In this document: positions 1 through 33,668 of the stretch, piece by piece
Layout: every line of letters starts with the position of its first letter
Numbering within the stretch: position 1 is the first letter of the stretch
From: Verrucomicrobiales bacterium
GTDB taxonomy: Bacteria; Verrucomicrobiota; Verrucomicrobiia; Limisphaerales; UBA9464
Assembly: GCA_016793645.1 (NCBI GenBank)
Contig: JAEUHD010000244.1
Span: 1 to 40,690, forward strand
Length of the DNA: 40,690 nucleotides
Reading direction: 5' to 3'
Program-made: the position numbers and the translations under genes
The notes under the pieces: model-generated
Database searches by the model: none
What the model was told of the DNA's origin: nothing
What the model saw: the letters and a program-made list of their open reading frames with translations, nothing else

Positions 1-1122
1 CCGTTCACGTGGACGGCAACTGCGCGGACGGCGACGGGGGCCTCGGACGATCTTTTCGACGGATTTGAAGGCCGGCTTCTCGGGGCTGACACGGCACAAC
101 CCCCGGGGTCGGCGTCGCTGCTGGCCCCGTGGACGAGCTACAACTATGCGCAGAACGGCGGGGTGGGCAGCCTCTACTTCGACACCGGTATCCAGTTGGT
201 CGGAACCGAAGGCAGCGAGTCGGCCTTTCTCATCTACACCAATCCGCCGGCGGTTGGGTCCTTCTCCGGATTTGGAATCGAACGCGGGTTTCCCGTGGAA
301 TTCTCACTGCCGACGTCGGCCGCCACCTGGAGGCAGTATTCCTTTTCGTGCGATGTTCGCGAGGCGCACGGTCATCCGATGCGCGTGGGCCTTCAATTGA
401 AGAGCCCGAACGAACCCGGGGAGCCGGTGGACCGGGTGCATGCCATTCAGTATGTCCAGGCGTACGACGCCCCCGACGGTTCGTGGCGGCGCATTGAGGG
501 GACCCTCGACCGGTTTGAGCAGCCGGATTTTCTCGGTCGCTTTGACTTCGGGCATGTGGTCCGTTTGGTGATCAACTTCGAGATGCTGGAGACCTCGGCG
601 GTCTATCAGGTGTCGCTGGACAACATCCGATGGAACGGACCGGAACGCACCGGGATCGCCGGGGAGGTTCGGGCCGTGTACCGCAGTGACAATGATTCAC
701 CGGCGCCGCTTCTGGACACCGATGGGGATGGAATTCCCGATGTCCACGAAACCGGGACCGGCCGTTACGTCAGTGACTCCAATACCGGGACGAAGCCGGG
801 GGTGGCGGACTCGGACGGGGACGGGCAGACCGATGGCGAGGAACTGTTGACGGGAACGGATCCCAACCGGTCGGAGGACTTCTTCCGGATCTCGTCGTCG
901 CGGGATTCCACCGGAAATCCCGTGTTGTCCTGGTTTGGGAAGGCTGGACGTCACTATGACGTGTCCCATGTCGGGAATCTCGAGGACCCGTCCGCGGAAT
1001 TCTTTCCGGTGCCGGGACTGCTGGATCTGGTCGCGGGCGCAGACGGGGTGATGGAGGTCCGCGATGCCTCGGCGGACGAGGGGCGGACCCGGTATTATCG
1101 CGTCAGCGTCCGGGCCCGGTAG
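1..1122 (+). CDS. Secreted carbohydrate-binding-like protein with TSP3-type calcium repeats (5' end outside window)
   Basis: Frame 1 is open from the first base of the window to a TAG at 1120-1122, so this is the last 373 codons of a longer gene; the GTG at 163 is only an internal codon. The N-terminal visible part (to about base 650) is rich in aromatic beta-strand patterns and ends in YQVSLDNIRWNG, the kind of strand that closes CBM4/11/CIA30-like beta-sandwiches. Bases 715-870 encode two acidic loops, DTDGDGIPD and DSDGDGQTDGEE, followed by TGTDPN; these match thrombospondin type 3/dockerin-like calcium sites. The final 80 residues (VLSWFGKAGRHYDV to RYYRVSV) look like the beta-rich C-terminal domain common on verrucomicrobial exported proteins. 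No C-terminal sorting signal is seen. It is convergent with the giant gene, with only 21 bp between. Being extracellular and binding a glycan is inference; a catalytic domain may lie upstream. Confidence 0.75.
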   Translation, partial: PFTWTATARTATGASDDLFDGFEGRLLGADTAQPPGSASLLAPWTSYNYAQNGGVGSLYFDTGIQLVGTEGSESAFLIYTNPPAVGSFSGFGIERGFPVEFSLPTSAATWRQYSFSCDVREAHGHPMRVGLQLKSPNEPGEPVDRVHAIQYVQAYDAPDGSWRRIEGTLDRFEQPDFLGRFDFGHVVRLVINFEMLETSAVYQVSLDNIRWNGPERTGIAGEVRAVYRSDNDSPAPLLDTDGDGIPDVHETGTGRYVSDSNTGTKPGVADSDGDGQTDGEELLTGTDPNRSEDFFRISSSRDSTGNPVLSWFGKAGRHYDVSHVGNLEDPSAEFFPVPGLLDLVAGADGVMEVRDASADEGRTRYYRVSVRAR

Positions 1123-1143: not shown

Positions 1144-4100
1144 TCAGGGGGCCGGATTCCGGGGGGGCGGGTTGGAGACCGGACGAAGCTCCTCCTCAAG
1201 TTGGTGCAGGATCCGCCAGGCGTAGGCGTCGCTGCGCTGGTCCACGTACGTCTTGAGGTCGGTGAAGAGGGCGAGGTAGCGCGAGGATTGCTCGTCGGCG
1301 AGTCCGCCGGACTGGTCCATGCGACGTCGGAGTTCGGCGTAGGCGGCCTGGGCCCTCGGTAGGAGTCCGGTGCGTCCGCGTCCGATGCGGTCAAACCATT
1401 GCACCCAGCGACCCGCGGCAAACCCGGCCAGGACCAGGGCGGTTGCGGCGCCGACGATGGTCAGGATGGTTTGCAGGGACATGGAGGTCTTGTAGGCGCC
1501 TGCGCTGAAGACGAAGAGTCCGGGCACGGGGACCACGAAGAACCAGAGAAACACCAGCAGGGCGAGGGCGAAGGTGCGTTGGAAGACGGCCACGCCGCGG
1601 TGGGAGGTTTCCCGGGGTTGCATGGGTTCCTTCAGGAAGGGGACGATCCGAGAATCGAGGAACGAGGCCACCGCCTTGCGTGGCTCCGGCGGGAGACCGG
1701 CCTTGTCGAGTGCGGCCGAGGTCCGGGCGGGGTCGCCCGCCGCGGCGAGCAACTGGGCGTGGAGCGGGGTCGTGAGTTCCCCGGGGACGCCTGCGCGGGA
1801 GAGCAGGCGACGCAGCGCCCGTCCGGCCCGCGCCCACCGCCAGTGGAATCCGAGATAACGTCCTCCGCGCCAGGCAATCCATCCGAACAGGCCCAACAGC
1901 AGCGCCACACCGAGGAGTCCCCCGGTGCCTCCCTGGGCGATGAGCAGCGAGACGGCGGTGTAAAACACCACCGCCCCGGTCCAGCCCAGGAACTTCGGCA
2001 ACAGCACGCGGATCCCCGGATGACGCCCTGGATTGGGGCGCATCAGGTAGGGGCCGAGCACCAGGCTGACGGAAAACAGGAGCGACGGGAGGAGCAGCAG
2101 GACGTTGAACATGTCCAGGCTGTACAGGGCCACCAGGTTCAGGATCAGGGCGGGGATGCCAATGCCCCAAACGATGGTGCGGAGGTTGATGAAGTGGGGA
2201 TAGGTGTCGAGGGGACGGTCCTCGCGCGGTCCGGCGGCGGTGCGGAACGCCATGTTGACGGCGGAGGCATCGGTGGCGGCGGCGCCCGAGGCCACGAACT
2301 CGATGCTTTGCCGCATCACCTGCCCGAGCGCGTGAAGGACCAGTTGGGGGCCGAACAGGATGATGTCCCGGAGCCGGGTCACCAGCCAGCGGTTGAGGCC
2401 GACCAGGAATCCGCCGTAGAGGGCACCCAACACCGCCCCCGCAGGCGCGACCGCCTGCAGTTCGGGAATCATGGCGGCTCCGGCACCGCCGAGAAGGGCT
2501 CCCAGCAGCGCGCCGATCCGGTGGAATCCCGTGGCCTCCAGGTAGGTGTTGAGTCCGTGCAGTGTCAGCACCTGGTTCATCACAAACCCAAAATTCCAAA
2601 GCAGCATCAGGATCTGGATGAAGGGGGTGACGTCGAGGATGATGGCGAGTGGCAGGAGGAGCGCGTTGAGGAGGGCAAAGGGGGCCGAGAGGAAATTGCG
2701 TCCGCTGTTGCTGCGGATTTCGCGCGCGAAGATCGAGGCGGGACCGAAATCGTTGATCCGCTGCATCAGCGGATCGTGCTGCATTTGGAGATACCCGCCC
2801 GACCAGCGCGGAAATGCCGCCATCCATTCCGCGTGGCTCCAGGTTTCCCGGATCTTGTGCCACAGGGCGGAGGAGAGCGCGTATTTCACCCGTCCCCCGA
2901 GCGCGATGACATTGTGGGACGCCTGGGAGACCGCCCAGGTGTCCTCGGATATCCCCACCGCGTGCGGGGTGAATCCGATCAGCCCCTCGGTCCGGACGGC
3001 AAAGGACGATCCACGGATCATCCGCGAGGTCAGCGGCATCTTGGGTGTCAAGGGGTGCATCATGGCCCGTTGGACCCGTCCGTAGGTCACGGTGAGGATG
3101 TTGCCCCAGCCGGTGCCGACGCCTTCGCTGGCGCGTCCGCCAAGGCAGGACATGAGTCCCTTGAGGAAGGACCGATGCCCCTCCTCAATCAGCTGCGAAC
3201 CCTGTCCGAGATCCGTGAGGGTGTTGGTGGTGCCTCTGCCGGGGATCACAATGATGAGATCCGGATCCGCCATCGCGGTCCGGAGGTCGCGGGTGAAGGC
3301 GTCGAGGTCGTTGACGGTGGCATTGCGGTCGAGGACCACCATCGTCCCGAGGCGCATGGTTTCCTCGGGCACGAGATCCATTCCGGTCATGCCGGCGGAC
3401 TTGAAGCCGAAGGGGGTCCAGTTCTGCACGCTCCACGCCCGGGCTCCCGGGGCGAGCGCCCGGATCAGCCGGCACAATTTGTCCCGATGGCCCAACTCGC
3501 CGTCGGAGTACTTCAGCTGCGAGGGCCGGTTGTCGTCGCGGTTGTCGTATTTGTTCTGGATGAAGTAGAAGACCGTCCGCGGCGCCAGTCCCTCGCGTTC
3601 GAGCCGCAGGGCGACGTCCACCAGATTGATCGCCGTATCCTGCGAGTGGCCGGCCGTGGACATCATGGTGACGAGCCATCGGCGCGCATCCCAGGCGGTG
3701 AGAATCCCGCGGCGCTGCGACTCATCCGGGACGGTGAGGTTGAGTCCGAGGGACGGATCCAGGGAGGGCGCCTCGCCGTCGACCACCAACTGGCGCGGGT
3801 TCCACAGGGTCACGGCGTGGCGGGATTCCAGATCGAAAAGCCCCTGGAACAGGCGTTCCAGCGCCGCGTCGTCCAACTCGCCGGTGATCCGGTGCAGCAG
3901 CGAGATGCCCGTGGATCCGAGGCGGTCCCGGAGCAGGCGCCAGCGGGACATCAGCAGCGCCGGGGTCAGTTTGAGTGAGGAGAGGTCGTCGCCGCTCATG
4001 TACACAATGCCCAGTCCCTGGGAGGACGTTGTGGTGGTCTCCGGATCCCGCGGTGGGGCCGCGGGTCGCGTGCGCCACCGGCGGATCGCGGCGAGCAGGG

Positions 4101-7100
4101 GTTCCTCGAAGATTGCCAGGAGCACCAGGCCCAGCGCCACCGTCCAGGCCGGACCCTCGTGGCGAACGGGGTTCCAGGAGGCGTCGGGTCCGAAGGCCGC
4201 GAGTCCGAGTTCCGCCAATCCGAGGGCTGCGGCCACGGAACAGATGGGGAAGGTGGAGAACACGGCGGCCACGGCGGTGGCCAGCAGGAAGATCCCGTAG
4301 CGGAGCAGGTAGAGCGTATTCCAGAAGACCAGGCCGCCGAGGAGCAGCTTGAACGGGGAGCCCGAGAGATACACCTCGGTAAACCATAGGGGCAGGATCT
4401 GCTGGCAGAGATAGGCTCCGATGAGGAAGAAGGAGAAGTTCAGCAGCAGAAACACCGCGATGGCCTGACCCTGGCTGGCACCGTCGCCGGAGGGCACCGA
4501 GGGGCGGAGATGATAGCGAACCGAAAGCCAGATCGGTGAGGCGGGGCGCGTCGCGGTCAGGTTGAGTCGGTTCAGGAATTGGAGGAGCCGGCCGGAGGGA
4601 TTGAGTTTGGCGCGATCCTGAATCCGCAGGCTGAACAGGGATACGAGCAGGGGAACCACCGTGCCCAGGATCTCGGTGATCACCAGCATCGCCAGGATGC
4701 CCTTCACGATCAGATAGGTGACGAAACTGGGGGTGGTCAGCCGGAAGAGGGTGACGGCGAGGGCGGACCAGCCCAGGACTCGGAGGATCCATCCCAGGTG
4801 TTCGTAGAGGGACGGATTCCAAAGCCGGCCTTCGTGGACACCTCCCGTCGCCGGCTTCGTGCGCACGAAGATCGAGGTCACCGTCGAGTCCGCGAGCATG
4901 CCGGCCTTGGTGCGCGGGAGGAGCGTGTCCTCAAACCGGTAGGTCCGCACGTACCGCGCCGCGAGGCCGAGAGCGACGCTGCAGGCGAGGGGGACTGCCC
5001 AGATCAGGGATGCGGGATCCAGTGCCGCCGTGGTCAGAAGGGATCCCAGGTAGGGAATCACCGGGCTGTCGCCGACCGACTGGTTGTACCAGATCAACGC
5101 CCCGAGGCCGGTGAGCACGAAGCTGGGGAATATCTTGGCGAACTCAATCAGGTACGGGTGGAGCGGGAACGGCTGCTCCCGGCGCTTCCAGACCTTGTAG
5201 TTCTCGACGATCCTCATCAGGTGCGGCATCGGCACGTTCAACCGCGCAGCCACCTCCTTCATGACATCCGTCAGCGTGGCACCGGGACGCTGGATCACGA
5301 GCAGGTCCATGGCATCCGGATTCTCGGGGAACTGGAACAATGACCGGGCATCGAAGGCCTCCTTCCGGCTCCGGACTCCGAGCGCCTCCAGGGCCTTGGA
5401 GAACTCCCATTCAAACAGCATGCGATCCTGGTCCGTGGGAAGGGACTCGTACCGGTGCAGCAGGTTCAGCAGTGTGCAGTAGTGCTCCGACAGGTACATC
5501 ACCAGGCGTGACCACAGGTGGTTGCTGTCCTCATTTCCCTCGAACGCTTCCGGATGATCGAAGCCATCCTTGGCACCCGCCTTGATGACGTAGCGCAGGT
5601 AGATTCCGACGACGCTGGCGAATTCATCCAGTCCATTGAGCCAGGGATCCGTCCCGTCCTCCACGAGGCGCGGGTCGTCCTCCGCCCATCGGCGCTCGCG
5701 CCGGCGCCATTCCAGGACGAGCTTGTAGACGGCCCGGAGCTGCATCAGGAAGTTCTGTTCAACCGTGGCGTTGGAGTAGCGCGTGCAGGTGGTCCCCGCC
5801 GGACTGCGCACCCCGAGGACACGGGCGGACCAGCGTTCCTCCGCACGGCGCATGACCGGTTCGGGAACGAGGGTGGGGTCGGCTTCGCTGGAACGGTGGC
5901 GGAAGCGCCGGAGCCGCCACCACGCGAGCGTCACCATCATCACGCCGACGTAGTACAACGCGGCGAGGCCGACGAACGCGGCGAGGTCCGTACGGGCCTG
6001 TCGGACCGGATTGCCGAGAATCCGGCGCGCCCTCGGAACGACCTGGGGTGGTGTGGACGGTGCGGCATTGGTTCCGGCGAGTTCTCCGGCGACGGCGAAC
6101 GTCGGGGGCCAGCCGCCGCCCCGTTGCGGACTCCGCGGATAGATCACGGTGCCCTGTTCCGTCTTGAGCGGCCGCGCGGTGGCGGTCGTGACGACGGCGG
6201 GGAAGCTCCCATTGTCGGCAATCCGGCTGAGGCTGGTCCGGGCAAGGTTCGCCGCCGGGACGTGTCCGAGTTGGGTGGCAACCCGGAGAAACCGGGCGGT
6301 GTTTACGGTCGAGATCGCCTCGGAGCGGAGGAGCGGAAGGCTCCAGTCGAGTCCCCAGGTTCCCTCGACGCGGGCGCCATGGGCGCGGGCGAGATTGTCG
6401 AGCCAGCCCCGGGCGGTTTCCGGGGTCACCCCGCCGGAACGACCGGCGACGTCGAGCCACGCAAGCCAGGCTTCGGGCGAGGTCCAGCGCTCGGGCGCAA
6501 GCGCGGTCGTCTCCCCGTAGATGTCCTGGACCTCAAACCAGGCGGTCGGGACGACCCCGGTTCGCTGGACCTCGGGAAGCACGTGCGTGTTGAGCCAGGC
6601 GCGCTGCTCGGCCAGGCCCGCCTGGAGCCGGGACAACAGCTCGGGTGTGGACGGAGACAGTCGGCGGCGGGTCGTGATCCGTTCCAGCAGGGCGAAGGCA
6701 TCCGCATTGGACTCCACCGGGAACCGTGCAGCCTCGGGCCAGAAGACGAGCCCGAGCGCCCTTTGGACGGGCAGGTATTCGGTGGCGCTGATTCCCCGGG
6801 GGCCGCTGGCGGATTCCTCGGGACGAAACTCCCGCAGCAGCGTGTCGGCAAGTTCGTCGGCAAACGATTCCCATCCGGCGTCCCCGGAGGCGTCCGCAAG
6901 ATCCAGGGCCGCCGAAGCCACCGCAATCTGTGCCGCCGCCGTTGGGCGCGACTGCACGGGCAGACTGAAGGCGAGTTCCCGAGCCAGGGCCGTGCCGGAG
7001 ATCGCGTCGTAGCTCGCCTGGATGGGCTCGAGACCTTCGCGGGAGGGATCCCAGAAGGATTTGTTCCGGTAGAACTCCAGCAGGTCGCGCGCGATGCCCG

Positions 7101-10100
7101 GCTCTCCGGCGCGGATGGCCAGGGAGGCGATCCGGGCCTCCTCCACCGTGTCCACAAACCGTTCCACCTCGGTTTCCAGCATCGTGGGAATCAGATAGGT
7201 GGGGGCGTCGGCCCGGTTGAGGTTGGTGGCGAATCTGCGGACGTGGAGTTCGTTGAGGGTGGCGGCGACGCGAACCAGGTTCAGATCCAATGCCGCGGCC
7301 GAGGGGTTGTTGGTGACTTCCAGCCAGGGAAGGGAGCGGGTCGGCAGGATCGCCTCGGACAGGGTGGGAAGTCGCCGCAGTGCGGCGGCCTGCAATCGGG
7401 CATGATGCAGCATGCCATAATGGAATCGACTCGTGGTGGGACGGTTTGGATTTGGGCCCGCAAACCAGTCCAGGATCCTGTCCCCGGCGTAGTGGAATGA
7501 ATTGGCGGCCACCCGGTTTCGCAGGACCGCCACGGGGTGTCCGAGGATGCTGCCGCTCTTCGTCACCCGGACCCGGGCGTGGTAGTCGTAGCCGTAGGCG
7601 ATGTACCCCGGGGAAATCTCCTCGCCGAGAATGCGGGGATTGAAGATTTCCATTCTCGGCAGCTCGAAGCCCTGCACCACCGAATACACCTGCACCATTT
7701 CCCCCTGCGAAATGGTTTCAAACCGCTGTTCAAAATGTCCGTCCAGCGAGGAGAGCCGGTAGAGGGGACGCGGCGTTCCCGTGTCGCCCGTGGCGACGAC
7801 GACCACGTCGGGGTAGGGGGATCGCTTGGGAGCGGGCTGCGTCACGGCGATGGGCCGCCCGTTTCGCTCGAGGAAGGTGCGGACATCCTCGTCGGCGAAG
7901 ATCGCCGCCGGAGACCGGTGGACCGGAGTCTCGGTGACCCGGACGAAATCGTGGGGGGACTGCCGGGATTCCCGCACAACCTTGGGCGCGTGCCGCAGCG
8001 GATCCACGCGGGTGCCGCGGCGCATCCGTCGCAGCGGGGTCGCCTCAATGGGATGGCGGGATTCGAGAATGGCCGTGTCCAGTTGGGCCGGATCGATGCC
8101 GGCATGCACGAGTTCCGGGACGCTGACCGCATAGGCCCTCTCCCCGGGCCCCAGCCACAACGGACCCGCCACCGTCGCGGCCTGGTCCGGAGCGGATTCG
8201 TCGGGAAGCCACTGGGACAATGCCGGGCTCAACGGCCAGTATCGGACGGGACGAAGACCACGCCGCGTCGAGTCGGAGCCCACCCGCACCTCGTGTCCTG
8301 CCTTGTCCCTGAAATACAGGATGGGGTCCACCCCGTTGGTGGACCGGGTGTAGAAGTAATAGAAGTCGTCGTCCGTTCCCCCGAGGACACCCGTGCCGGC
8401 GATGGACAGGGAATGCGATTCTCCGGCGCGGGGGGGCGGGGAGGTGGCAAGCCAGTGGGTCGTGTTGGGTTGTGGCAGTTGATAGGAGAACTTGATGGCG
8501 GGAGCCCCGCCTTCGGTCTGTTTGAGGATTCTCCGGACGCTGAGCTGTCCCTGCGCATCGTAAATGTCCTCGGCGCTGAGGACCTGGGCCCCCGTCGGAT
8601 CCAATCCCTGCGTGGTCCAGGCCGTCCAGAGGCCCGATTCGTCCGGAAGGTGGGGGTTGGAGGCCCATTCCCTCGGATCCGTGGTGAGCGATGCGGCGAT
8701 GCCTCCATTGCCCAGGGAGCTGGTCCGCACGGTGGCGGCGCTGGTCCCGGCGGTGCCTTGGACGGAGGTGACCTGGTCCCGCCACGGGACGGCATTCACG
8801 GCAAGGCCGGATGCCGCGGCGTCGGGTGCCCGATTGGTCAGGACCCGTTCGCGGCCGAGGCCGGCGGATGCGGGGACTTCGACCCACGAGCCGGGAGCAT
8901 ATCGGTAGCGATAGGTGAAGCGGTCCGCGGTTGTCGGGGGCGCCTCGAAGAGATTGGTGGCATTGAATCCGGCACCGCCCGGATTCGGAATCCGGCTGAT
9001 CTGGGACTCCAGCAGGTTGCCGGACCGGTCCATGAGCATCCGGGTGCGGACCGGATTGAAGAGCGGGAGAAGGCTCACGGATTCCACCCGCATGAGGGGT
9101 TCGCCGGGGAACTCCGGGCTGACGGCGGGCGAGGTTCTCGAAATCGACCAAACGTGCCCGAGGGTGGTGTCATCCAGTCGAACGGGAACGCCGGACGCCG
9201 CGGAGGGATCCGTGACATACCGGGGGGCGGGGAACGGTTGCGTGAGGTCAAAGTGGCTGCGGCCCTCGGCGGAGAGGCTCGACACGGCGACCCCGGTGCC
9301 CCGGGCGATGGAGATCACCTCCATGAGGGGTGCCTGCGAAGGGGGGGCGGACCACGGGGCAAGGCGGCTTCGCAGGGCGCGATCCGTGGGGATTCCGCGT
9401 TCCAGGCTGCCGGACAGTTCGAGCGACACGGATTCCCGAACCGCGCCGTCGCGCCCCAGGACCTCCGCCTTCTGGATCAGGGCCGAACCGGGAAACCAGG
9501 AAGCGGTGCGGGTGATCCGTCCGTCTTCACTGCGCGATTCCCGCACGCGGCCGAACGGGTCGCCGAGGGCCAGGATCTCCGTGGAATTCAGGCCCCAGAA
9601 AGGGGTGACGCGCACGGGCAGCAGCACGGTGCCGTCCGGTTGCGGTTGCGGCGCGTCCGGAATCCGGACTTCCCGTCGTTGGTCGTTCTGGTAGAGCTCC
9701 GATTGGCGCACCCGCTCGGTGCCACCGTCGTAGGCGATCCGGGTGGCCAGTCGCAGGTCCGGATAGTTCCGCTGGCCGTCGACGATGACCCGGCCCTCGG
9801 CGTCCATCGTGGATCGGTATTCATCATGGGGACTTCCTGAAATCCACGTTTGGACCCGGGCGTCTCGCGTGCCCTCCGTCCACCGGAAGTCACTGTCCAC
9901 CCGGACCAGGCTGTCGAAGACACCCGGGGTTCCCGAGGCGAACCACACCAGGTTGCTCCGCGTGATCCCGTCGGCGTCGTAGGCCGGGCGGGCTTCGAGG
10001 GCGGATCCCGTGCGGCTGCGGAGAAGGCGCCCCCCGGGACTGTACGTCGCCGTCTCCGTGCGGTTCGTCCAGCCGAGACGGTACCACCCGTCGCGGCGGA

Positions 10101-13100
10101 TGACCCAGGTGCGGGCTCCTTCATCAAAGCCTCCTTCAAACCGGGCGACCTCCTCCCCGGAGTCGCGATCCTGCGTGCTGCCGGAAAGTTTCAGGCCGCC
10201 GTTTTCGAACCGCCGGAGGGTGCTGCGCAACGCGGTGTCCACCCGGATGGGCGCCTCCCACCTTGGGGACCAGACGTTCGTGCGAACGGCTCCGGTGAAT
10301 TCGACTTCGACGCCGGTCATGCGGCGGGCCGTCGGATCCACCGTCAAGGTGCGGCGCTCCACGAGGGGCGCCCCGGAGGCGGCGGTGGTCACCACCCGCC
10401 TGGGGACGAGTCCAAACAGGAATCCGTCGTCGTACTCCCGGACACTGCGCTCCAGGAACGTCCGCGAGCCGTCAAAAGGATCAAACGACTCCCCGGATTC
10501 CACGCGTCCGGACCGGGCGAGGTTTCGTCGTTGGATCTCGCGCCCGCCGGTGATGAGATCCCGTCGTTCGAGGACCATCACCGGTTCGGCTCCCGGGAGG
10601 ATCTCCCGGACCGTCGATTCAAACCGCGGCGGTCCGGGGTTGGGATGCAGAATCGCGGGCGGTGGGATTGCGGCGGGATCGTCGTCTCCAGCGAGATTCG
10701 GGGAGGATATCGAACGCTGGAGGCGGCCCATCGGATCGTAGGTATTGGTGGTGATGAATCCCTCACCCACCACCTCCACCGGGAGCGGAAACAGTCCGAA
10801 GGTCTCTCGCGTCCAGTCCCCGGTGACGCGGACCAGTCGCAACCGGCGCAGCCGCGGCGCCGCGGCGTCCAGCGGGTCGGTGTTCCCACCGGGAAACCAG
10901 GCGTCCTGAGTCCGGGTCTGCTCAATGAGATCCCCCTCCTGCGGTGCCGCGAGGGTTCCGCGATTCACCCGGGTCTCGGAGGACAGTTCGAGCCCCAGGG
11001 GATCCCGTTGAACCCGGGTGATGCGGTCCGCGGTGATCCGGTCCCGGAGGTGTCCCCGCTCATAGACATCGATCTCCTCCACCCCGGTCAGCGGATCGAT
11101 CCGATGACGACGGATTTCGCCAAGGGGAAACTCCAGACTCACCGCCACCCGTTCACGTCGTCCGTCGCCATCGGCATCCAGATCCAGGATGGCCCCGGCA
11201 TAATGTTCCCGGTCGAGTCGGGCACGGTCCGCGACCGGCATCCGATCCAGCGCCGTGAACACCGGTTCGAGTCCGGACTCCGTCGTTCGCAGCCCGGTTC
11301 CAACCACCGGCCCCGTGCCGGAGCGGATCAGGGGACCCAGTTCGAGGCGGCCGTTTCGTTCCTGGATGGAGTTGAGGAACGCGACTCCGGCGCCACCCGG
11401 GGACACCCCGGCCTTCCGGGCCTTCTCTATTTCGGAACCTTCACGGAGCCGGTCCGAATCCCGGGCGAGCTTTTCGAGACTGGCCAGGGCCGTGACCTGG
11501 ACCACGCGGCGGTGTCCGTTGATGACCGCCACATAGCGGAAGCTGCTTCCCTCGGACTGCACTCCCAGCAGGGGATCGGGCGCGGAGGGATCCGTGCCAA
11601 TGCCATGGGCCTTCAATGCCGCACGCACCGGTTCGAGGAGGGCATCCTCCCCCGGCACCGGTGGGAGACCGAGGCTCCTGCGACGCAGGTGATGGCGCCA
11701 CTCAACGAGGGGCGCCAGCAGGTCCACGAAGCGTTCCCGCACCGCGGTTTCCCCGAGGTAAATCCTGGGCTCAAGGTCCGGAACGGGCAGTGATGGGGCG
11801 TCTTCCGCCTCCACGATCTGCTCCATGACCATGCCGCGCTCCAGACCCCGCTCGTACTCGCGGAACCGTACGACCTCGCGTTCGATCGTGGCGGAATAGT
11901 CACCGTAGGCCTTCAGTCCGTAGAGGATCATCGCGGTCTGACCGCGGTGTTTTCCGTCCGGGATGGTGTAGGCGAACACCGCGAGGTTCGAATCCCTCAA
12001 CCCGCCCTTGCCATCGGAGACCTTCACGTACCCCAGGGGAACCATCCGACCGTTCCGGATCTCGGATTCCATCGATTCGCGGGTGGGGAAGTGGACGACA
12101 ATGGTTCGTCCGAGGAGTCCGTAAGCGTAGTCGTTGTCGAACGCCTTGAGGTCGTCCTTCATCAGGCCGCGCTTGTAGAAGAGAAGGACGGGATAGCCGA
12201 AGATGCGGATCTCGTAGGCGGCGAGATCGGTCATCCGCGCGGCATAGGGGAACGGCATGCGGAGCTCCTTGTCCGCCAGCGACCGGAACCGCATCCGCTG
12301 GACGCTGTTCATGAGGGCGCGGATGTCGAAGGAGATGCCCAGGTATTGCGCCCACGCGCGGTAGGGGGCGTCCCCGCGGACGAGGCTGTAGAGACTGACT
12401 CCACTCAGGGGGGTGACTCCCTTGGCGCCCACCGCGGCGGCGATGATGTAGTTGATGTACACGTCACCGTTGAGGGAGAAGTACGGGTTGTTGAACAAAT
12501 CCCGCATGACCCCGGAATACGCCTTGCCGCTGACGACGGCGGCACCGCTGAGGATGTTGACCAGCAGGGTGTATTTCGCATCCATGTTCGCCTGCTTCGC
12601 CAGGGCGAGCATCGCCTTGAGGTCGCCGTCGTTGAGTCCCTCCAGGGTTTCCCGGATCTGTTCCTCGGTCAGTTTCGAGAAGTCGGCCCGGAGGATCTCG
12701 ATGTCCGAGCGCGTCAGGTACTCATCAGGCTTGAGCTTGAGTGTCGGGTGGCGCTGGCGCGCAGCCAGCAGGAGAAACAACTCCCGCATTTCCTCCGCGG
12801 TCGGGACCTTGGGGATATACCGGGGTCCCACGATCATGTTGTAGCCCAGTTGCGCACCGGCCCCGAGCGGGAATCCCACTCCCGATACCCCGCCCCCGAT
12901 GTTCAGACCCGCGAAGAGCGGGGAGAAAATCATGTCCAGGTTGGCCCGCTTCAGGTCGAGTACCTTGCGGCGGTGCTCCAGATGCGCGTTGATCAGGCCG
13001 AATCGGGCAAGGGAGAGTTGCTGGAGCACCTCCGGTTCCCCGAACTCAAGAACGTTCCAGCGCCGGGGATCGGGTTCGGCAGGATTCTCGATGCGGAGTT

Positions 13101-14154
13101 CGACGAAGTCGCGTCCGGTGATCGGATGCGGATCCGCTTCGAGTCCGTCCCCCAGGGGCGTGCGCTTGAAGGCGAGGGCGTACTGCCGCGGCTGGCCCGG
13201 GCGTTTCAGCCAGAGGCGGGTCTGGCCCTCGAGGACCTCGCGCTCCACGTCATCCTCGCGGTAGGCCGCCACCACGCGCGAAAAGTTGCCGGCGTCGTCC
13301 ACGGCAAATTCGAAGGCCACGAACAGGTTCGTGCTTCCCGTCGGACGGGGCGGCAGCGGGTCCAGCGGGAAGGTGCCTTCATGGGTGGCCTCCGAGAGCG
13401 CGTCCCACTGGACTTCCGGATTCAGCCGCTGATGGCCGTCGCGCGCGGAGAGGATTTGCTGGGCGGTTTGCTGCAGGTTGCGCGAGCGCTGATAGGCGAT
13501 GCTTCGCAGCAGCGCTTCGTCCGCGGCCTGAAACCCGAACTCCACGCGGCATCGATGCGGCGTTCCCCCCGCGGCATCCGGAAACGTGAGCGTCAGGAAG
13601 GTGGGCGAATCCGGGGAGTTCTCCGTGCGCTCCGCCACCTCGAGCGCGGAAAGCCGGCGGCCGGCGACTCCCTCCTCGGTGCGACCGTCCGCGGTGTAGG
13701 CCCACACGTCCACGATCGCCCCCTGGCTCTCGACGAACTCGAAGAATCCCCGGCGCGTTTCGAAGCGCCCCTCCACCGCGTTCAGGGTCGCCGGTTGCAG
13801 GGAAACGAGGGCGGCGAACCAGGTTCCCGCGAGCTTCTCCTGCACCAGCGACGCATAGCGCGCGTCCGCAGCCGCGCGGGCCGACTCCGCGGCAAGGTCG
13901 CCATGGCGCTCCACGACGGGGAGGGCCTCCGGAAGCCGGGGCCAGGCGGACGACGGATCCGAGGCTTCCGAAGCCCGTGTTCGACCGAGGGCGCACCCGA
14001 TCAACAGGATCACCCACAGGGGGAACAGGACCGCCTTGAAACGTCGAACATCGTGAATTCCGGGAGGACGGGTCCCCGAATTCAGGGGCCGGCTTCCTGG
14101 ATGGGAAGTTTCGGCTCTGGGGATTGGAAATCCATCGTCGGTCAACGGGTTCAA
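1144..14154 (-). CDS. Giant membrane-anchored protein: YD/Rhs-like exterior plus polytopic domain with glucan-synthase-like core
   Basis: Uninterrupted 4,336-codon ORF from TTG at 14154 (AAGGG lies 5 nt upstream on the minus strand) to TGA. Residues 39-58 form a hydrophobic segment ending in LLIGC, which fits a lipobox, after an unusually long 38-residue leader. Residues about 60-980 are soluble and unrecognised. About 980-1900 contain degenerate YD/Rhs-like units (TYDPMGRLQ near 1135, DPFGRVRE near 1530, MDRSGNLLE near 1707, IYDAQGQL near 1865). About 2280-2690 are helical and could be an alpha/alpha toroid. A membrane helix follows at about 2722-2745, then a soluble stretch, several helices between about 3000 and 3355, a soluble domain at about 3380-3820, and about ten further helices to a short soluble C-terminus. 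The 3380-3820 domain contains LDRNATVNDLDAF (near 3605) and GISEDTWA followed by GGRVKY (near 3733-3755). These resemble, by eye only, motifs of GT48 beta-1,3-glucan synthases. Function unproven; an exopolysaccharide synthase/exporter is a hypothesis. The gene stands alone in its orientation. Confidence 0.9.
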   Translation of the reverse strand: MNPLTDDGFPIPRAETSHPGSRPLNSGTRPPGIHDVRRFKAVLFPLWVILLIGCALGRTRASEASDPSSAWPRLPEALPVVERHGDLAAESARAAADARYASLVQEKLAGTWFAALVSLQPATLNAVEGRFETRRGFFEFVESQGAIVDVWAYTADGRTEEGVAGRRLSALEVAERTENSPDSPTFLTLTFPDAAGGTPHRCRVEFGFQAADEALLRSIAYQRSRNLQQTAQQILSARDGHQRLNPEVQWDALSEATHEGTFPLDPLPPRPTGSTNLFVAFEFAVDDAGNFSRVVAAYREDDVEREVLEGQTRLWLKRPGQPRQYALAFKRTPLGDGLEADPHPITGRDFVELRIENPAEPDPRRWNVLEFGEPEVLQQLSLARFGLINAHLEHRRKVLDLKRANLDMIFSPLFAGLNIGGGVSGVGFPLGAGAQLGYNMIVGPRYIPKVPTAEEMRELFLLLAARQRHPTLKLKPDEYLTRSDIEILRADFSKLTEEQIRETLEGLNDGDLKAMLALAKQANMDAKYTLLVNILSGAAVVSGKAYSGVMRDLFNNPYFSLNGDVYINYIIAAAVGAKGVTPLSGVSLYSLVRGDAPYRAWAQYLGISFDIRALMNSVQRMRFRSLADKELRMPFPYAARMTDLAAYEIRIFGYPVLLFYKRGLMKDDLKAFDNDYAYGLLGRTIVVHFPTRESMESEIRNGRMVPLGYVKVSDGKGGLRDSNLAVFAYTIPDGKHRGQTAMILYGLKAYGDYSATIEREVVRFREYERGLERGMVMEQIVEAEDAPSLPVPDLEPRIYLGETAVRERFVDLLAPLVEWRHHLRRRSLGLPPVPGEDALLEPVRAALKAHGIGTDPSAPDPLLGVQSEGSSFRYVAVINGHRRVVQVTALASLEKLARDSDRLREGSEIEKARKAGVSPGGAGVAFLNSIQERNGRLELGPLIRSGTGPVVGTGLRTTESGLEPVFTALDRMPVADRARLDREHYAGAILDLDADGDGRRERVAVSLEFPLGEIRRHRIDPLTGVEEIDVYERGHLRDRITADRITRVQRDPLGLELSSETRVNRGTLAAPQEGDLIEQTRTQDAWFPGGNTDPLDAAAPRLRRLRLVRVTGDWTRETFGLFPLPVEVVGEGFITTNTYDPMGRLQRSISSPNLAGDDDPAAIPPPAILHPNPGPPRFESTVREILPGAEPVMVLERRDLITGGREIQRRNLARSGRVESGESFDPFDGSRTFLERSVREYDDGFLFGLVPRRVVTTAASGAPLVERRTLTVDPTARRMTGVEVEFTGAVRTNVWSPRWEAPIRVDTALRSTLRRFENGGLKLSGSTQDRDSGEEVARFEGGFDEGARTWVIRRDGWYRLGWTNRTETATYSPGGRLLRSRTGSALEARPAYDADGITRSNLVWFASGTPGVFDSLVRVDSDFRWTEGTRDARVQTWISGSPHDEYRSTMDAEGRVIVDGQRNYPDLRLATRIAYDGGTERVRQSELYQNDQRREVRIPDAPQPQPDGTVLLPVRVTPFWGLNSTEILALGDPFGRVRESRSEDGRITRTASWFPGSALIQKAEVLGRDGAVRESVSLELSGSLERGIPTDRALRSRLAPWSAPPSQAPLMEVISIARGTGVAVSSLSAEGRSHFDLTQPFPAPRYVTDPSAASGVPVRLDDTTLGHVWSISRTSPAVSPEFPGEPLMRVESVSLLPLFNPVRTRMLMDRSGNLLESQISRIPNPGGAGFNATNLFEAPPTTADRFTYRYRYAPGSWVEVPASAGLGRERVLTNRAPDAAASGLAVNAVPWRDQVTSVQGTAGTSAATVRTSSLGNGGIAASLTTDPREWASNPHLPDESGLWTAWTTQGLDPTGAQVLSAEDIYDAQGQLSVRRILKQTEGGAPAIKFSYQLPQPNTTHWLATSPPPRAGESHSLSIAGTGVLGGTDDDFYYFYTRSTNGVDPILYFRDKAGHEVRVGSDSTRRGLRPVRYWPLSPALSQWLPDESAPDQAATVAGPLWLGPGERAYAVSVPELVHAGIDPAQLDTAILESRHPIEATPLRRMRRGTRVDPLRHAPKVVRESRQSPHDFVRVTETPVHRSPAAIFADEDVRTFLERNGRPIAVTQPAPKRSPYPDVVVVATGDTGTPRPLYRLSSLDGHFEQRFETISQGEMVQVYSVVQGFELPRMEIFNPRILGEEISPGYIAYGYDYHARVRVTKSGSILGHPVAVLRNRVAANSFHYAGDRILDWFAGPNPNRPTTSRFHYGMLHHARLQAAALRRLPTLSEAILPTRSLPWLEVTNNPSAAALDLNLVRVAATLNELHVRRFATNLNRADAPTYLIPTMLETEVERFVDTVEEARIASLAIRAGEPGIARDLLEFYRNKSFWDPSREGLEPIQASYDAISGTALARELAFSLPVQSRPTAAAQIAVASAALDLADASGDAGWESFADELADTLLREFRPEESASGPRGISATEYLPVQRALGLVFWPEAARFPVESNADAFALLERITTRRRLSPSTPELLSRLQAGLAEQRAWLNTHVLPEVQRTGVVPTAWFEVQDIYGETTALAPERWTSPEAWLAWLDVAGRSGGVTPETARGWLDNLARAHGARVEGTWGLDWSLPLLRSEAISTVNTARFLRVATQLGHVPAANLARTSLSRIADNGSFPAVVTTATARPLKTEQGTVIYPRSPQRGGGWPPTFAVAGELAGTNAAPSTPPQVVPRARRILGNPVRQARTDLAAFVGLAALYYVGVMMVTLAWWRLRRFRHRSSEADPTLVPEPVMRRAEERWSARVLGVRSPAGTTCTRYSNATVEQNFLMQLRAVYKLVLEWRRRERRWAEDDPRLVEDGTDPWLNGLDEFASVVGIYLRYVIKAGAKDGFDHPEAFEGNEDSNHLWSRLVMYLSEHYCTLLNLLHRYESLPTDQDRMLFEWEFSKALEALGVRSRKEAFDARSLFQFPENPDAMDLLVIQRPGATLTDVMKEVAARLNVPMPHLMRIVENYKVWKRREQPFPLHPYLIEFAKIFPSFVLTGLGALIWYNQSVGDSPVIPYLGSLLTTAALDPASLIWAVPLACSVALGLAARYVRTYRFEDTLLPRTKAGMLADSTVTSIFVRTKPATGGVHEGRLWNPSLYEHLGWILRVLGWSALAVTLFRLTTPSFVTYLIVKGILAMLVITEILGTVVPLLVSLFSLRIQDRAKLNPSGRLLQFLNRLNLTATRPASPIWLSVRYHLRPSVPSGDGASQGQAIAVFLLLNFSFFLIGAYLCQQILPLWFTEVYLSGSPFKLLLGGLVFWNTLYLLRYGIFLLATAVAAVFSTFPICSVAAALGLAELGLAAFGPDASWNPVRHEGPAWTVALGLVLLAIFEEPLLAAIRRWRTRPAAPPRDPETTTTSSQGLGIVYMSGDDLSSLKLTPALLMSRWRLLRDRLGSTGISLLHRITGELDDAALERLFQGLFDLESRHAVTLWNPRQLVVDGEAPSLDPSLGLNLTVPDESQRRGILTAWDARRWLVTMMSTAGHSQDTAINLVDVALRLEREGLAPRTVFYFIQNKYDNRDDNRPSQLKYSDGELGHRDKLCRLIRALAPGARAWSVQNWTPFGFKSAGMTGMDLVPEETMRLGTMVVLDRNATVNDLDAFTRDLRTAMADPDLIIVIPGRGTTNTLTDLGQGSQLIEEGHRSFLKGLMSCLGGRASEGVGTGWGNILTVTYGRVQRAMMHPLTPKMPLTSRMIRGSSFAVRTEGLIGFTPHAVGISEDTWAVSQASHNVIALGGRVKYALSSALWHKIRETWSHAEWMAAFPRWSGGYLQMQHDPLMQRINDFGPASIFAREIRSNSGRNFLSAPFALLNALLLPLAIILDVTPFIQILMLLWNFGFVMNQVLTLHGLNTYLEATGFHRIGALLGALLGGAGAAMIPELQAVAPAGAVLGALYGGFLVGLNRWLVTRLRDIILFGPQLVLHALGQVMRQSIEFVASGAAATDASAVNMAFRTAAGPREDRPLDTYPHFINLRTIVWGIGIPALILNLVALYSLDMFNVLLLLPSLLFSVSLVLGPYLMRPNPGRHPGIRVLLPKFLGWTGAVVFYTAVSLLIAQGGTGGLLGVALLLGLFGWIAWRGGRYLGFHWRWARAGRALRRLLSRAGVPGELTTPLHAQLLAAAGDPARTSAALDKAGLPPEPRKAVASFLDSRIVPFLKEPMQPRETSHRGVAVFQRTFALALLVFLWFFVVPVPGLFVFSAGAYKTSMSLQTILTIVGAATALVLAGFAAGRWVQWFDRIGRGRTGLLPRAQAAYAELRRRMDQSGGLADEQSSRYLALFTDLKTYVDQRSDAYAWRILHQLEEELRPVSNPPPRNPAP

Positions 14155-16496: not shown

Positions 16497-19091
16497 CTAC
16501 GGAAGCTTGAGCAGTTCCGGTTCCGTCCAGGAATCCTCACGCTGGGCGGTCTCCGTCCGGACTTTACCCACGGTTTCGGGACGCACGGGCTTTGCCGAGT
16601 GTCCCCATTCGTTGCGAATGTAGGTGAGCAGGTCGGCGATCTGCCCATCATTGAGCGCCTCGGCGAAGGCGGGCATGGCCAGGTTCCAGGTGGTTCCGTT
16701 GACGGTGACCGGATCCCTCAGTCCGTGGAGTGCGATGCGGATCAGGCGCTGCTCGCTGCCGGTGGCCCACTCGGACTCGACCAAGGGCGGAGCGAGACCC
16801 TCCTGGCCGCGCCCGTGCGGTTGGTGGCACGCGCCGCAGACCACGGCGTAGAGTTCCCGGCCACGCAAATAGCTCTCCTGGTCGGCTCCCTGGAGCGGGG
16901 CGGCAACCGCCGGCGCCTGGAAGCCCGCCTTGCCCGGCCAGGTGAACAGCGGGTCCAGCCGGGCCATGCGGTTGGGGACATCGGGCGACGAACTGCCGCG
17001 CAGGCTCTTCAGCCCCGCCGGTTCCGTTTCGAACGGAATCGGTTTCACGGCCGGTGGCGGCTGTCCCGGACGGGGCGGGGCGGGAAGGGTGGACACCATG
17101 CCGTCCAACAGGGCGAGTTGCTGCCATTCGCCGGAACGGCTGTCGGCGATCAACTGCAGGAGTTTTGCCACGCGCGGCGGCTTGGCCTCGACGGTGATGC
17201 AGCGCGCCAGACCGGACAACAGGGCGACATGCCCCTCCTTGACCGCACTGCAATTGGGGTCGGCGACGAGGGCCTCGAGGAATTCCAGTTCACGTCCTCC
17301 GAGCCCGCTGAGCGTCGCATGGATCCGGAGTAGGTCCGGGGAGGTGTTCATCAACAATGCCCGCAGGATGGCATCCGCAGTCGGGGTCTTCACCTCGCCC
17401 AGGGTGAGCATGAGTTGCAGTTGTTCCTCCGGGGGAATGAAGCCGGCCCGGCGATAGATCAGGTTGAGGGCGGCCTCCCGGTCCGGACCGTCGAGGAATC
17501 CCTCCGTCAGACGGAGGGCCGCGGAGCGGACGGCGCCATCGGAATCCGCCATGGCCGCCTCCACGGTCGAGAGATCGAGGGTCCCCAGTCCCTCAAGGGT
17601 CCATAGCGCGGCCAGCCTTCCGTCCGCGGAGGTCGTGTTCGTCCGGACCATCAACTGGAGCATGCGGGTCGACGCCGGATCCGCCCGCTCCACCAGCAAT
17701 CGCTGGGCGGTGTCGCGCCAAAATCCGCTGGGGTCCGTCAGTCGCGCCACGAGATCTCCGGTCGTGGGCTTCGGACCGAGGGGGCGTGCCGTTCCGGCGG
17801 GACGGTTCGTTTGGACGATCCGCCAAATGCGGCCGTGGTCCACGGGTGTCATCAGGCCCCGCGATTCGATCTGCTTCCGGAGATAGCTGGTGAGGTAGAT
17901 GCGGTGCTGAATCAGTCCCCGGTACAGATCCACCACGTACAGGGCGCCGTCGGGTCCGTTGTAGAGGTTGACCGGACGGAACCGCTCGTCGGTGGACGCG
18001 AGGAATTCGGCGTGGTCGTAGGCGTTGGTTGCGGTCAACAGGCCGTTCTGATTCAGGAGCCGGTTGCGGCGGATGATGTTTCCGGTCGGTTCGCAAAGGA
18101 AGACGTCCCCCCGCAGGTCGGGACCCAGTTGTTCGCCCCGATAGACGACCGGGCCGCAGGCGCCGGTGAAAGTCGCCAGGTGGCCGTCGGGTGTGAGTTG
18201 GCCGGGCTGATAGCCGCGGTTGACGCCCGGATTGACCCGGGCGGTCCAGAGCCGCTGGTCGGGGGAGAGTTGGACATTGGCTCCAAATGGGGCGCGAAGA
18301 TGCGGGTTCCGGGAAAGGTAGCGGTCCGGGATCAGGTCCGCCCGGATCTGGTCGGAGTTGGAATTGTAGAACAGGCGTCCCCGGTCGTCCTGGGAGAGGC
18401 CCCATTGACCCCGGAAAATGGTGGGACTCCGGAGCCAGTTGGTGGGCGACCCGTTCCAGCGCATGCGTTGCGTGTGGTTTGCGGAGTACACCCAGTTGTC
18501 CCGGGCCCACAACAGTCCGTTGCTGGCGTGTTCCGGATTCGACTTGTCGCCGAGTTGGGGATCGTTCTGTGTTGCGTAGTCGCTGGCGATCCGGATTTTT
18601 TCATCCGCGCGACCGTCCCCGTTGGCGTCCCGCGCAAACCAGAGGTTCGGGGGTTCGGCCACCACGACGCCATCCCCCGCCAACATCAGGGCGCGCGGCA
18701 TGACCAGGCCATCGAGGAATACCGTCCTCCGATCCATGCGGCCATCGGCGTCCGTGTCCTCGAGCACGACGATTTTTCCGGTGGGCTCCGTTTCCCCGGA
18801 CCCCGACGGATTCTGCATGTAGCCCGTCATCTCCACCACCCAGAGGCGGCCGAGGGGATCGAACTGCATGGCGACCGGGGAGTGGACGAGCGGTTCGGCC
18901 GCGACCAGGTCGGCGCGAAACCCCGGAGGAAGCCGGAACGTGGCGGCCTCCTGGGCGGGATCCAGGACCGGGGACGGCGGGATCCTGTCCGCCGGGACAC
19001 GCTCCAACTGGGCCTCACCCGAGTGATCCCCGTTCTGGGCCATGAGGGGCAGGGCTGCCGCGAAGAGGACCGACCCGAGGCGCAGGTTCAT
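16497..19091 (-). CDS. PVC-type membrane-bound dehydrogenase with HEAT-like region and C-terminal cytochrome c
   Basis: 864 aa with a signal peptide (MNLRLGSVLFAAALPLMA). Residues about 45-420 form a beta-propeller typical of the 'putative membrane-bound dehydrogenase' family of Planctomycetes and Verrucomicrobia: FRLPPGFRADLVAAEPLVHSP, QFDPLGRLWVVEMTGY, DTDADGRMD, and NGPDGALYVVDLYRGLIQHR. Residues about 430-640 are helical and repetitive (HEAT-like: AVRSAALRLTEGFLDG). The last 120 residues are a class I cytochrome c: CGACH places haem-binding Cys752, Cys755 and His756, and MPAF gives the likely axial Met806. The family is thought to oxidise sugars or polyols in the periplasm and pass electrons through the haem; the substrate here is unknown. 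The start codon lies 1 nt after the stop of the SDR gene, so the two are one transcript and are probably coupled in translation. Confidence 0.9.
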   Translation of the reverse strand: MNLRLGSVLFAAALPLMAQNGDHSGEAQLERVPADRIPPSPVLDPAQEAATFRLPPGFRADLVAAEPLVHSPVAMQFDPLGRLWVVEMTGYMQNPSGSGETEPTGKIVVLEDTDADGRMDRRTVFLDGLVMPRALMLAGDGVVVAEPPNLWFARDANGDGRADEKIRIASDYATQNDPQLGDKSNPEHASNGLLWARDNWVYSANHTQRMRWNGSPTNWLRSPTIFRGQWGLSQDDRGRLFYNSNSDQIRADLIPDRYLSRNPHLRAPFGANVQLSPDQRLWTARVNPGVNRGYQPGQLTPDGHLATFTGACGPVVYRGEQLGPDLRGDVFLCEPTGNIIRRNRLLNQNGLLTATNAYDHAEFLASTDERFRPVNLYNGPDGALYVVDLYRGLIQHRIYLTSYLRKQIESRGLMTPVDHGRIWRIVQTNRPAGTARPLGPKPTTGDLVARLTDPSGFWRDTAQRLLVERADPASTRMLQLMVRTNTTSADGRLAALWTLEGLGTLDLSTVEAAMADSDGAVRSAALRLTEGFLDGPDREAALNLIYRRAGFIPPEEQLQLMLTLGEVKTPTADAILRALLMNTSPDLLRIHATLSGLGGRELEFLEALVADPNCSAVKEGHVALLSGLARCITVEAKPPRVAKLLQLIADSRSGEWQQLALLDGMVSTLPAPPRPGQPPPAVKPIPFETEPAGLKSLRGSSSPDVPNRMARLDPLFTWPGKAGFQAPAVAAPLQGADQESYLRGRELYAVVCGACHQPHGRGQEGLAPPLVESEWATGSEQRLIRIALHGLRDPVTVNGTTWNLAMPAFAEALNDGQIADLLTYIRNEWGHSAKPVRPETVGKVRTETAQREDSWTEPELLKLP

Positions 19092-31460: not shown

Positions 31461-33545
31461 GTGTCCACGGTGTTTGAAGCGGCGTTGATTTCGTTGCGGC
31501 GATGGAAGTCCCCATCGGCTGCGCGCTGGCTGGGGATTCTCCTGGCGTTGGCCTGGGGAGCTGGTGTTCAGGCGCGCGAGGTGGAGATTGCTTCGCCGGA
31601 TGGACGGCTTGTGGTGCGGATCCAGGAGGCTGTGGGGCCTGGTGGCATGGGGCCGCGGTGGTCCGTGGAGTATCGGGGACGGCCGCTGTTGGAGGACTCC
31701 CGGTTGGGAATGGGAATCCTGGGGAAGGGGGAACTGATGGAAGGTGCCAAGATCACCGGGGTACAGGAACGTGTCGTCCGGGAGTCGATCCCGATGCCGC
31801 ACGGCAGGGCGAGGGTTGCCCGAAACCATTTCCGCGAAGGTGTCCTCCGGATGGAGACTCCGAAGGGTGGGTCGCTGCAGTTGACGTTCCGATGCTACGA
31901 CGATGCCGTGGCGTTCCGCTATTCCTGGTCGGGCGACTCCGCCGACTCCCTCGTGACGGTGACGAATGAGGACACCTCGTTCGAGCTCCTGGGGGAACCG
32001 ACGGCCTTTGCCCAATATCTGGAGCACGAGCGCACCTCGCACGAACACGAGGTGCGCGTGGTTCCGGTTCCGGCGCTGCCCCCCGGACAGTTGCTGGATC
32101 TGCCCCTGACCCTGCAGTGGACGAACGGGACGGTGATGGCGATCACGGAGGCCGCATTGCGGCGGTACGCCGGCATGGGGTTGGAACGTAGGGCGGGGGA
32201 CGGCACCGCGGTCGGGTTGGCGTGTCATCTCACGGCGCGGGCGGACGGCAGCCTGGTCGTTCGACGGGGCCGTGTGGAGACCCCGTGGCGGGTGGTGCTG
32301 ATCGGGGACCGTCCGGGAGCCCTCCTGGAGTCGACGACGCTATTCTGCCTGAATGAACCGAGTGTCCTGTCGGATACGGCGTGGATTCGTCCGGGCAAGA
32401 TCACCTTTCACTGGTGGAATGGGGACGTGTTCGACGGGAAGCCGGGTCCGCCCATGCTCTCGATGGCCATGAACCGGGCCTACATCGACTTCTGCGCCGC
32501 CGAGGGCATTCCCACCCATTCCATCACGTCCACCGAAGGCGTCACCTCGCCGTGGTATCATCAATCAATTCCGGGCGTCGCGCCGGGTCCGGACACCGAT
32601 GTCACCCGGCCGCGGGCCGACTTCGATCTGGAGGGCATCCGAAGCTATGCGGACCGGAAGGGGGTCCGGCTCTGGACCTGGGTTCACCAGGCGGCCCTTC
32701 GCGGCCGGGTGGAGGTGGCCTTTGCCGCCTTGGAGCGGATGGGCTGGACTGGGCTCATGGTGGACTTCTTCGATCACGACGACCAGGAGCACGTGGAGTT
32801 TGCCGAGGAGGTGCTTGAGGCGGCGGGCCGGCATCATCTGCTGGTGCAACTCCATGGAATCTGGAAGCCCACCGGACTCGAAAGAACCTTCCCGAACCTG
32901 GTGAACCATGAAGGGGCCCTGAATCTGGAGTACCTGAAGTGGAGTGATCGGTGCACGCCGGAGCATGACCTCCGGATGGCATTCACCCGGCTGGTGGCGG
33001 GTCCGATGGACTATCATCTGGGTGGATTCCGCGCCGTGCCGCGTTCGGACTTTGTTGCGCACGCGGTGGCTCCCACGGTCCTGGGCACCCGGGGGCATCA
33101 ACTCGCGATGTATGTGTGCTTCGACAATCCGAATCCGATGCTGGCGGACTATCCGACAGCGTATCGGGGGCAGCCTGGATTTGAGTTCCTGAAGGAGGTG
33201 CCGACCTGGTGGGATGAAACCCGGGTGGTGGTCGGCGAGATTGGGGAGTTGCTGGTTTCGGCGCGCCGTCGGGGACGCCACTGGTATCTCGGAGGTTTGG
33301 CCGCGCACGGCCCGCGTTCCCTGGAACTGCCGCTGGCGTTCCTGGGAGCCGGAAGCCATCGCATGCGACTGTGGAGGGATGGTCCGGGCACCGAGACGGA
33401 CCCGAATTCATTGGTGGTGGAGACGCGCGGGGTGACCGCACGTGATTCACTGAAGTTGGGGGTCGCCCGGGATGGAGGATTTGTCGCGCGATTCACTCCC
33501 GAGGTTCGATCCGTACGGGGAGCCGAATGGCTGGCACCCCGATAG
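31461..33545 (+). CDS. Secreted GH97 glycoside hydrolase (retaining type, alpha-galactosidase-like)
   Basis: 694 aa from GTG at 31461, with another GTG at 31470. The signal peptide is WLGILLALAWGAGVQA, after a rather long N-region. Family plan: N-terminal beta-supersandwich (residues about 40-290; REVEIASPDGRLVVRIQEAV, then FRCYDDAVAFRYSW), a TIM barrel (about 295-580) and a C-terminal beta-domain. GLMVDFFDHDDQ places Asp435 where retaining GH97 enzymes have their nucleophile, and LHGIWKPTGLERTFPNLVNH leads to Glu484, the likely acid/base. Inverting GH97 alpha-glucosidases lack that Asp, so alpha-galactosidase-like activity is favoured, by analogy with the Bacteroides retaining enzyme. A calcium ion usually helps catalysis. 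No transporter or SusCD pair is adjacent. It is convergent with gnd. Confidence 0.92.
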   Translation: MSTVFEAALISLRRWKSPSAARWLGILLALAWGAGVQAREVEIASPDGRLVVRIQEAVGPGGMGPRWSVEYRGRPLLEDSRLGMGILGKGELMEGAKITGVQERVVRESIPMPHGRARVARNHFREGVLRMETPKGGSLQLTFRCYDDAVAFRYSWSGDSADSLVTVTNEDTSFELLGEPTAFAQYLEHERTSHEHEVRVVPVPALPPGQLLDLPLTLQWTNGTVMAITEAALRRYAGMGLERRAGDGTAVGLACHLTARADGSLVVRRGRVETPWRVVLIGDRPGALLESTTLFCLNEPSVLSDTAWIRPGKITFHWWNGDVFDGKPGPPMLSMAMNRAYIDFCAAEGIPTHSITSTEGVTSPWYHQSIPGVAPGPDTDVTRPRADFDLEGIRSYADRKGVRLWTWVHQAALRGRVEVAFAALERMGWTGLMVDFFDHDDQEHVEFAEEVLEAAGRHHLLVQLHGIWKPTGLERTFPNLVNHEGALNLEYLKWSDRCTPEHDLRMAFTRLVAGPMDYHLGGFRAVPRSDFVAHAVAPTVLGTRGHQLAMYVCFDNPNPMLADYPTAYRGQPGFEFLKEVPTWWDETRVVVGEIGELLVSARRRGRHWYLGGLAAHGPRSLELPLAFLGAGSHRMRLWRDGPGTETDPNSLVVETRGVTARDSLKLGVARDGGFVARFTPEVRSVRGAEWLAPR

Positions 33546-33668
33546 GGTTTGGACAACGGGTTCCCACCCCTGCCGCAACCCGGTCCGAGAAACATCCGGT
33601 GGATCCGGAGGAACCCCTGGCTTGAACGGGAGGTGGCTTCCGAACCGCGTCGGTGGGGCCGGCAGTGA

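Follow-up and report, generated by a model that had tools for sequence, protein, structure and literature searches.

In the BcsA-BcsB(-BcsZ) cellulose systems, a cytoplasmic glycosyltransferase is combined with a periplasmic glycan-handling part and a dedicated secreted hydrolase. The cyclic beta-1,2-glucan synthases Cgs/ChvB/NdvB unite GT84 and GH94; in Cgs, six helices span the membrane and the soluble domains all lie in the cytoplasm (PMC10901819). We analysed a 40,690-nucleotide stretch of DNA (the window) from a genome of the order Limisphaerales, as judged by named relatives, and found that it encodes a giant protein next to a secreted GH42-like enzyme; together, the two probably make and trim a cell-surface sugar polymer. 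Like the cellulose systems, this pair would bring together a cytoplasmic glycosyltransferase-like domain, a glycan-handling part outside the membrane and a secreted hydrolase, but the exterior of the giant protein lies in the same chain, ahead of the glycosyltransferase-like domain, and is unrelated in every search made. With the processive family 2 (GT2) synthases (BcsA, hyaluronan and chitin synthases) it shares a GT2-like motif order and a cytoplasmic domain set between membrane helices, whereas it differs from them in about 19 helices and an exported N-terminal part of 2,650 residues in the same chain, in the absence of a Pfam GT2 match and in two of the motifs themselves. Cgs and its relatives are also giant single chains with a GT2-like membrane domain and a large soluble part. 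The layout of the giant protein nevertheless differs from that of Cgs, since its own soluble part is N-terminal and exported, and its glycoside hydrolase is a separate, GH42-like protein. Membership of GT84 was rejected, as profile-profile alignment to two Verrucomicrobiota GT84-type sequences by hhalign gave a P of 0.44, and no Pfam match to a GH94 phosphorylase domain was found anywhere in the chain. The likeness to Rhs/YD proteins, Tc toxins and teneurins lies in an all-beta stretch with degenerate YD motifs and in a weak Foldseek ranking; unlike them, the giant protein is devoid of an Rhs core and of a variable toxin tail, its YD-like zone makes up about one fifth of the protein and its C-terminus is polytopic.

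The original prediction, which gave no strand, had described a single uninterrupted frame of 4,336 codons. This frame was borne out on the minus strand, where it contains no internal stop; the plus-strand translation of the same interval is interrupted by stops. Its first start candidate is a TTG at position 14154, with no in-frame ATG nearby, and codon-position GC is coding-like and even over all 13 kb. A single-frame relative of 4,407 amino acids (G178, L015) aligns at 44% identity across residues 53-4331, and single-frame partial copies of 3,731, 3,440, 3,323 and 2,935 amino acids, each ended by a contig end, keep the parts in the same order. The giant gene is therefore real, and is due neither to chance nor to misassembly.

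The anchor signal, soluble exterior, helical domain and polytopic half that had been announced are all present (Table 1). The protein starts with a Sec-type signal, followed by about 2,650 exported residues and then by about 1,600 residues in which some 19 membrane helices surround a cytoplasmic domain. Topology was read from hydropathy and flanking charge averaged over relatives, in place of a dedicated predictor; the membrane segments are kept in the averaged alignment, and positive charge flanks the domain at residues 3385-3820 on both sides. On the strength of this flanking charge, the first 2,650 residues are predicted to lie outside and the 3385-3820 domain inside, on opposite sides of the membrane. 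Anchoring as a lipoprotein through the lipobox-like LIGC at residues 51-54 was considered and rejected, since LIGC is not kept in relatives.

Table 1. Features of the giant gene and of its partner in the window
Feature	Position	Strand	Basis or remark
Partner, C-terminal part: beta-sandwich-type domain, TSP3, C-terminal tail	1..1122	+	rest apparently on contig C124 (L149)
Giant protein gene, 4,336 codons, putative start codon	1144..14154	-	kept in other families; purifying selection
N-terminal signal/anchor, residues ~36-60	13975..14049	-	Sec-type signals in relatives too
N-terminal exterior domain, residues 60-1000	11155..13977	-	43-45% identity among relatives; no known family
Beta-rich zone, possibly degenerate YD-like, residues ~1000-1900	8455..11157	-	motif enrichment, profiles, poor model
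Second beta-rich exterior stretch, residues ~1901-2290	7285..8454	-	modelled secondary structure up to residue 2100; sequence inspection
Helical domain beside the membrane, residues ~2290-2690; invariant YD and WGxD acids	6085..7287	-	alignment
First helix of the membrane half, then positive cluster (predicted outside to inside)	5929..5985	-	hydropathy and charge
Conserved helical stretch, predicted cytoplasmic, residues 2743-3002	5149..5928	-	63-74% identity at residues 2801-2900
About 8 predicted membrane helices ahead of the catalytic-like domain, residues 3003-3357	4084..5148	-	hydropathy and charge
Putative GT2-like cytoplasmic domain, residues 3385-3820	2695..4002	-	motifs, profile comparison, dN/dS
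LDRNA motif (DxD position, here D-x-N); D, R, N and A invariant	3319..3333	-	alignment
S-E-D motif (TED position), invariant	2941..2949	-	alignment
RWSGGxLQ motif (QxxRW position, without leading Q); R-W-S-G-G and Q invariant	2785..2808	-	alignment
About 10 predicted membrane helices past the catalytic-like domain	1411..2691	-	hydropathy and charge

In the alignment of the membrane half, a KAGG-type motif in the 3385-3820 domain is followed by LD-x-N, then by S-E-D about 128 residues on and by R-W-x-x-G-x-x-Q about 46 residues further; in Verrucomicrobia GT2s used for comparison, DxD is followed by TED 90-94 residues on and by RW 41 residues further. The canonical DxD is thus replaced by an invariant D-R-N, the TED-type motif is present as an invariant S-E-D, and the canonical QxxRW is absent, RWxxGxxQ being invariant and the leading Q missing. 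This motif set occurs in order in 9/9 relatives and in 0/300,000 shuffles, with patterns that were partly picked after seeing the sequence and loosened post hoc (D-x-N, no leading Q). Aligned by hhalign with the Verrucomicrobia GT2s, the domain places KAGG, LD-x-N, SED and RW..G..Q in register with the GT2 motifs, at P 0.017 (5 of 300 column shuffles score as well), and the tiles that score best and give long alignments are those containing this domain. The hmmsearch score of the domain against a GT2 HMM does not exceed that of shuffles, and Pfam gives no significant GT2 match. Searches of the membrane half against Pfam, NCBIfam and PDB returned no convincing family or structure, PDB profile searches with alignments of the giant protein gave chance-level matches only, and the AlphaFold model of the domain (pLDDT 42, unusable) led to no usable match in a fold search. 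Because family profiles, the GT2 HMM and the AlphaFold model fail to support membership, we call the domain GT2-like rather than a member of GT2, a designation that motif order and register suggest, and which suits a domain predicted to be cytoplasmic with membrane helices on either side.

The partner is a secreted GH42-like enzyme, co-inherited with and adjacent to the giant protein. In the window, its open reading frame ends 21 bp from the stop of the giant gene and covers the C-terminal part only of what is, in complete copies, a secreted protein of 1,300-1,630 residues. The gene appears to continue onto contig C124, whose end holds the remainder and overlaps the first 125 bases of the window at 96%. 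The N-terminal part of the complete partner matches GH42 (PF02449, up to 6.3e-22 and 78.9 bits for a cut-off of 21), above cut-off in four relatives as well as in the window genome's own copy. Concerning the catalytic residues expected of the GH-A clan, GNE[YF], with the acid/base, is kept in the four sequences covering it, and SETG, with the nucleophile E, is invariant in five. The C-terminal beta-sandwich-type domains often come as two in tandem. In G171 (L092/L019), which belongs to another family, the giant gene is directly preceded, on the same strand, by that of the partner. Using the domain formed by the first 218 residues of the window frame, which occurs in 10 of the 320 genomes of the order, we found the partner in 8/10 giant-bearing genomes (G000, the window genome, and G003, G226, G171, G045, G019, G178 and G052) and in 2/310 others, several of the genomes counted being incomplete. 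The hypergeometric P is about 8e-13 when shared ancestry is ignored, 5e-9 at genus level and 7e-7 for well-completed genomes, deeper phylogeny being ignored in these last two. The catalytic domain, for its part, was found in 8/11 carriers versus 0/12 controls, and additionally in G191 and G083. The two giant-bearing genomes from which the partner is absent are 86% and 66% complete, and two genomes have a partner with no giant gene. One such giant-less partner gene (L150, G191:C45) looks as though it were decaying, being interrupted by a stop and a change of frame. Besides the GH42-like partner, no neighbour of the giant gene is widely shared across families. Elsewhere, the window encodes a DUF7133 and cytochrome c protein (16497-19091, minus strand) adjoined by a short-chain dehydrogenase gene, and GH97, 6PGD-like, phosphoglucose isomerase and ROK genes (31461-37170).

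We then assessed the exterior, for which YD-like units and a YD/Rhs character had been proposed. The motif Y[DNS]xxG is enriched in the window protein (4 seen, 0.43 expected) and in six relatives taken together (19 against 2.9), one of the six also matching the YD_repeat model TIGR01643 at 3.7e-4. No YD/RHS model of Pfam or NCBIfam matches the window protein itself, and a local YD-unit profile finds one weak unit in it. The AlphaFold model of the beta zone (pLDDT 35, unusable as proof) is nearly all-beta, and its top Foldseek matches are RhsA, Tse5 and TcdB2-TccC3 with negligible TM-scores. These observations suggest that about 900 residues form a degenerate YD-like zone; the Rhs side of the proposal fell, as Pfam and NCBIfam detect neither an Rhs core nor a toxin domain in the giant protein. 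The exterior of 2,650 residues also contains an unrelated N-terminal domain, for which no known family was found, and the helical domain. The second beta-rich stretch is possibly, by eye, a carbohydrate-binding beta-sandwich. The helical domain may be an alpha/alpha toroid. Elsewhere in the order, true RHS/YD repeats are found in very long frames of 7,554 and 10,043 amino acids (for example on G015:C93 and G011:C44); the window's own genome has no very long RHS/YD frame by PF05593.

The original prediction had also called for a search for the same architecture in other Verrucomicrobiota, and this search was fruitful within the order: the glycosyltransferase-like core is present in 10/320 Limisphaerales genomes, several of them incomplete, and the architecture is common to several families. 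Elsewhere in the phylum, a profile of the C-terminal half detected no relative among 387 genomes, and none was found among the plasmids, phages and viral contigs searched. The exterior occurs in the same 10 genomes and in G036, which has a truncated, diverged copy only. This version of 1,062 amino acids (L023, G036:C266, 2771-5956, minus strand) has the signal and helical domain at its start, omits the beta exterior and stops short of the glycosyltransferase-like domain. The distribution is patchy, since no other listed genome of the window genome's own family carries the giant gene. Frame breaks affect the copies of G171 (L019) and G052 (L020), which are split into several frames and for which decay and assembly error are both possible; the G062 copy has one in-frame TAA. 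Comparing two congeneric copies, we obtained a dN/dS of 0.028 in the glycosyltransferase-like domain and, for the rest of the C-terminal half as far as tested, of 0.11-0.16. The giant protein is thus under purifying selection, and this domain is the most conserved and most constrained of the tested parts.

Given GT2-like signatures and co-inheritance with a secreted glycoside hydrolase, the simplest reading is that of a glycan synthase with a processing enzyme: the giant protein would be a membrane synthase of glycans, GT2-like but divergent, whose exterior serves export or processing and which is paired with a glycoside hydrolase (probability roughly 0.55). The claim of a synthase-like membrane half thus gains from the ordered motifs, the flanking charge, the strongest purifying selection among the tested parts and, above all, the co-inheritance and adjacency with the GH42-like gene, and loses from the missing GT2 family match. 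The same signatures also suit non-processive membrane glycosyltransferases, the Q that leads the processive QxxRW motif is missing, and a huge exterior with weak YD character could serve as an adhesin or receptor scaffold; the giant protein would then glycosylate a lipid carrier, its own exterior or another surface protein. We hold this to be unlikely, as R-W-x-x-G-x-x-Q, the many surrounding helices and the linkage to a secreted glycoside hydrolase suit a polymer better. We give no more credit to a membrane half that is a novel transporter, channel or secretion component exporting or importing a glycan on which the GH42-like partner acts. Such a component would agree with the lack of any significant family match along the giant protein and with the shuffle-level HMM score, a profile P near 0.02 and the missing fold, but it leaves aside that four invariant motifs stand in GT2 order in the most constrained tested part and that the best-scoring tiles fall on this very domain.

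Two further explanations have far less in their favour. Degenerate YD motifs and the weak Foldseek matches of a poor model could point to a membrane-anchored YD/Rhs-type polymorphic toxin or contact protein, which we rejected as very improbable: neither Rhs core nor toxin is present, in place of a variable tail, the C-terminus consists of a conserved membrane protein stretch of 1,600 residues, and no small conserved immunity gene lies downstream. That two unrelated genes were joined by an assembly error, or that the gene has decayed, might be read from the broken G052, G171 and G062 copies; it is hardly conceivable given that another family has the identical fusion intact and that it is always co-inherited, with dN/dS far under 1.

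If the giant protein is a glycan synthase, its working can be outlined. The Sec pathway would export the N-terminus, and about 2,650 residues would fold on the outer side of the cytoplasmic membrane. The protein would next cross the membrane and place the GT2-like domain on the cytoplasmic face, where it may lengthen a sugar chain, perhaps processively. The product would leave by way of the helices around the domain, as happens in BcsA-type synthases. For the fused exterior, the simplest role would be to receive or shape the chain as it emerges, its helical and beta-rich portions binding, guiding or processing it; the original prediction had suggested that the exterior could shell, guide or modify a polymer. 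The separately secreted GH42-like enzyme, with its C-terminal beta-sandwich-type domains, would trim or transglycosylate the product.

We found no open-access paper describing this combination of features, and these proteins of more than 4,000 amino acids, carried by a few uncultured Verrucomicrobiota, constitute an undescribed family. Tentatively, and at somewhat less than even odds, they may represent a new class of glycan-assembly machine, in which one chain of more than 4,000 residues joins a new, diverged GT-A synthase family to an exported beta/alpha exterior that houses and processes the nascent chain and, with the co-inherited GH42-like enzyme, replaces the usual multi-gene polysaccharide cluster. 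If so, one chain would unite synthesis, membrane passage and processing on the exterior within a two-gene polysaccharide system, and current profile libraries would have missed a glycosyltransferase family. Such a compact system would lend itself to studying how processing domains take over a nascent glycan from a membrane synthase, and some of the giant proteins in Verrucomicrobiota would have a concrete explanation.
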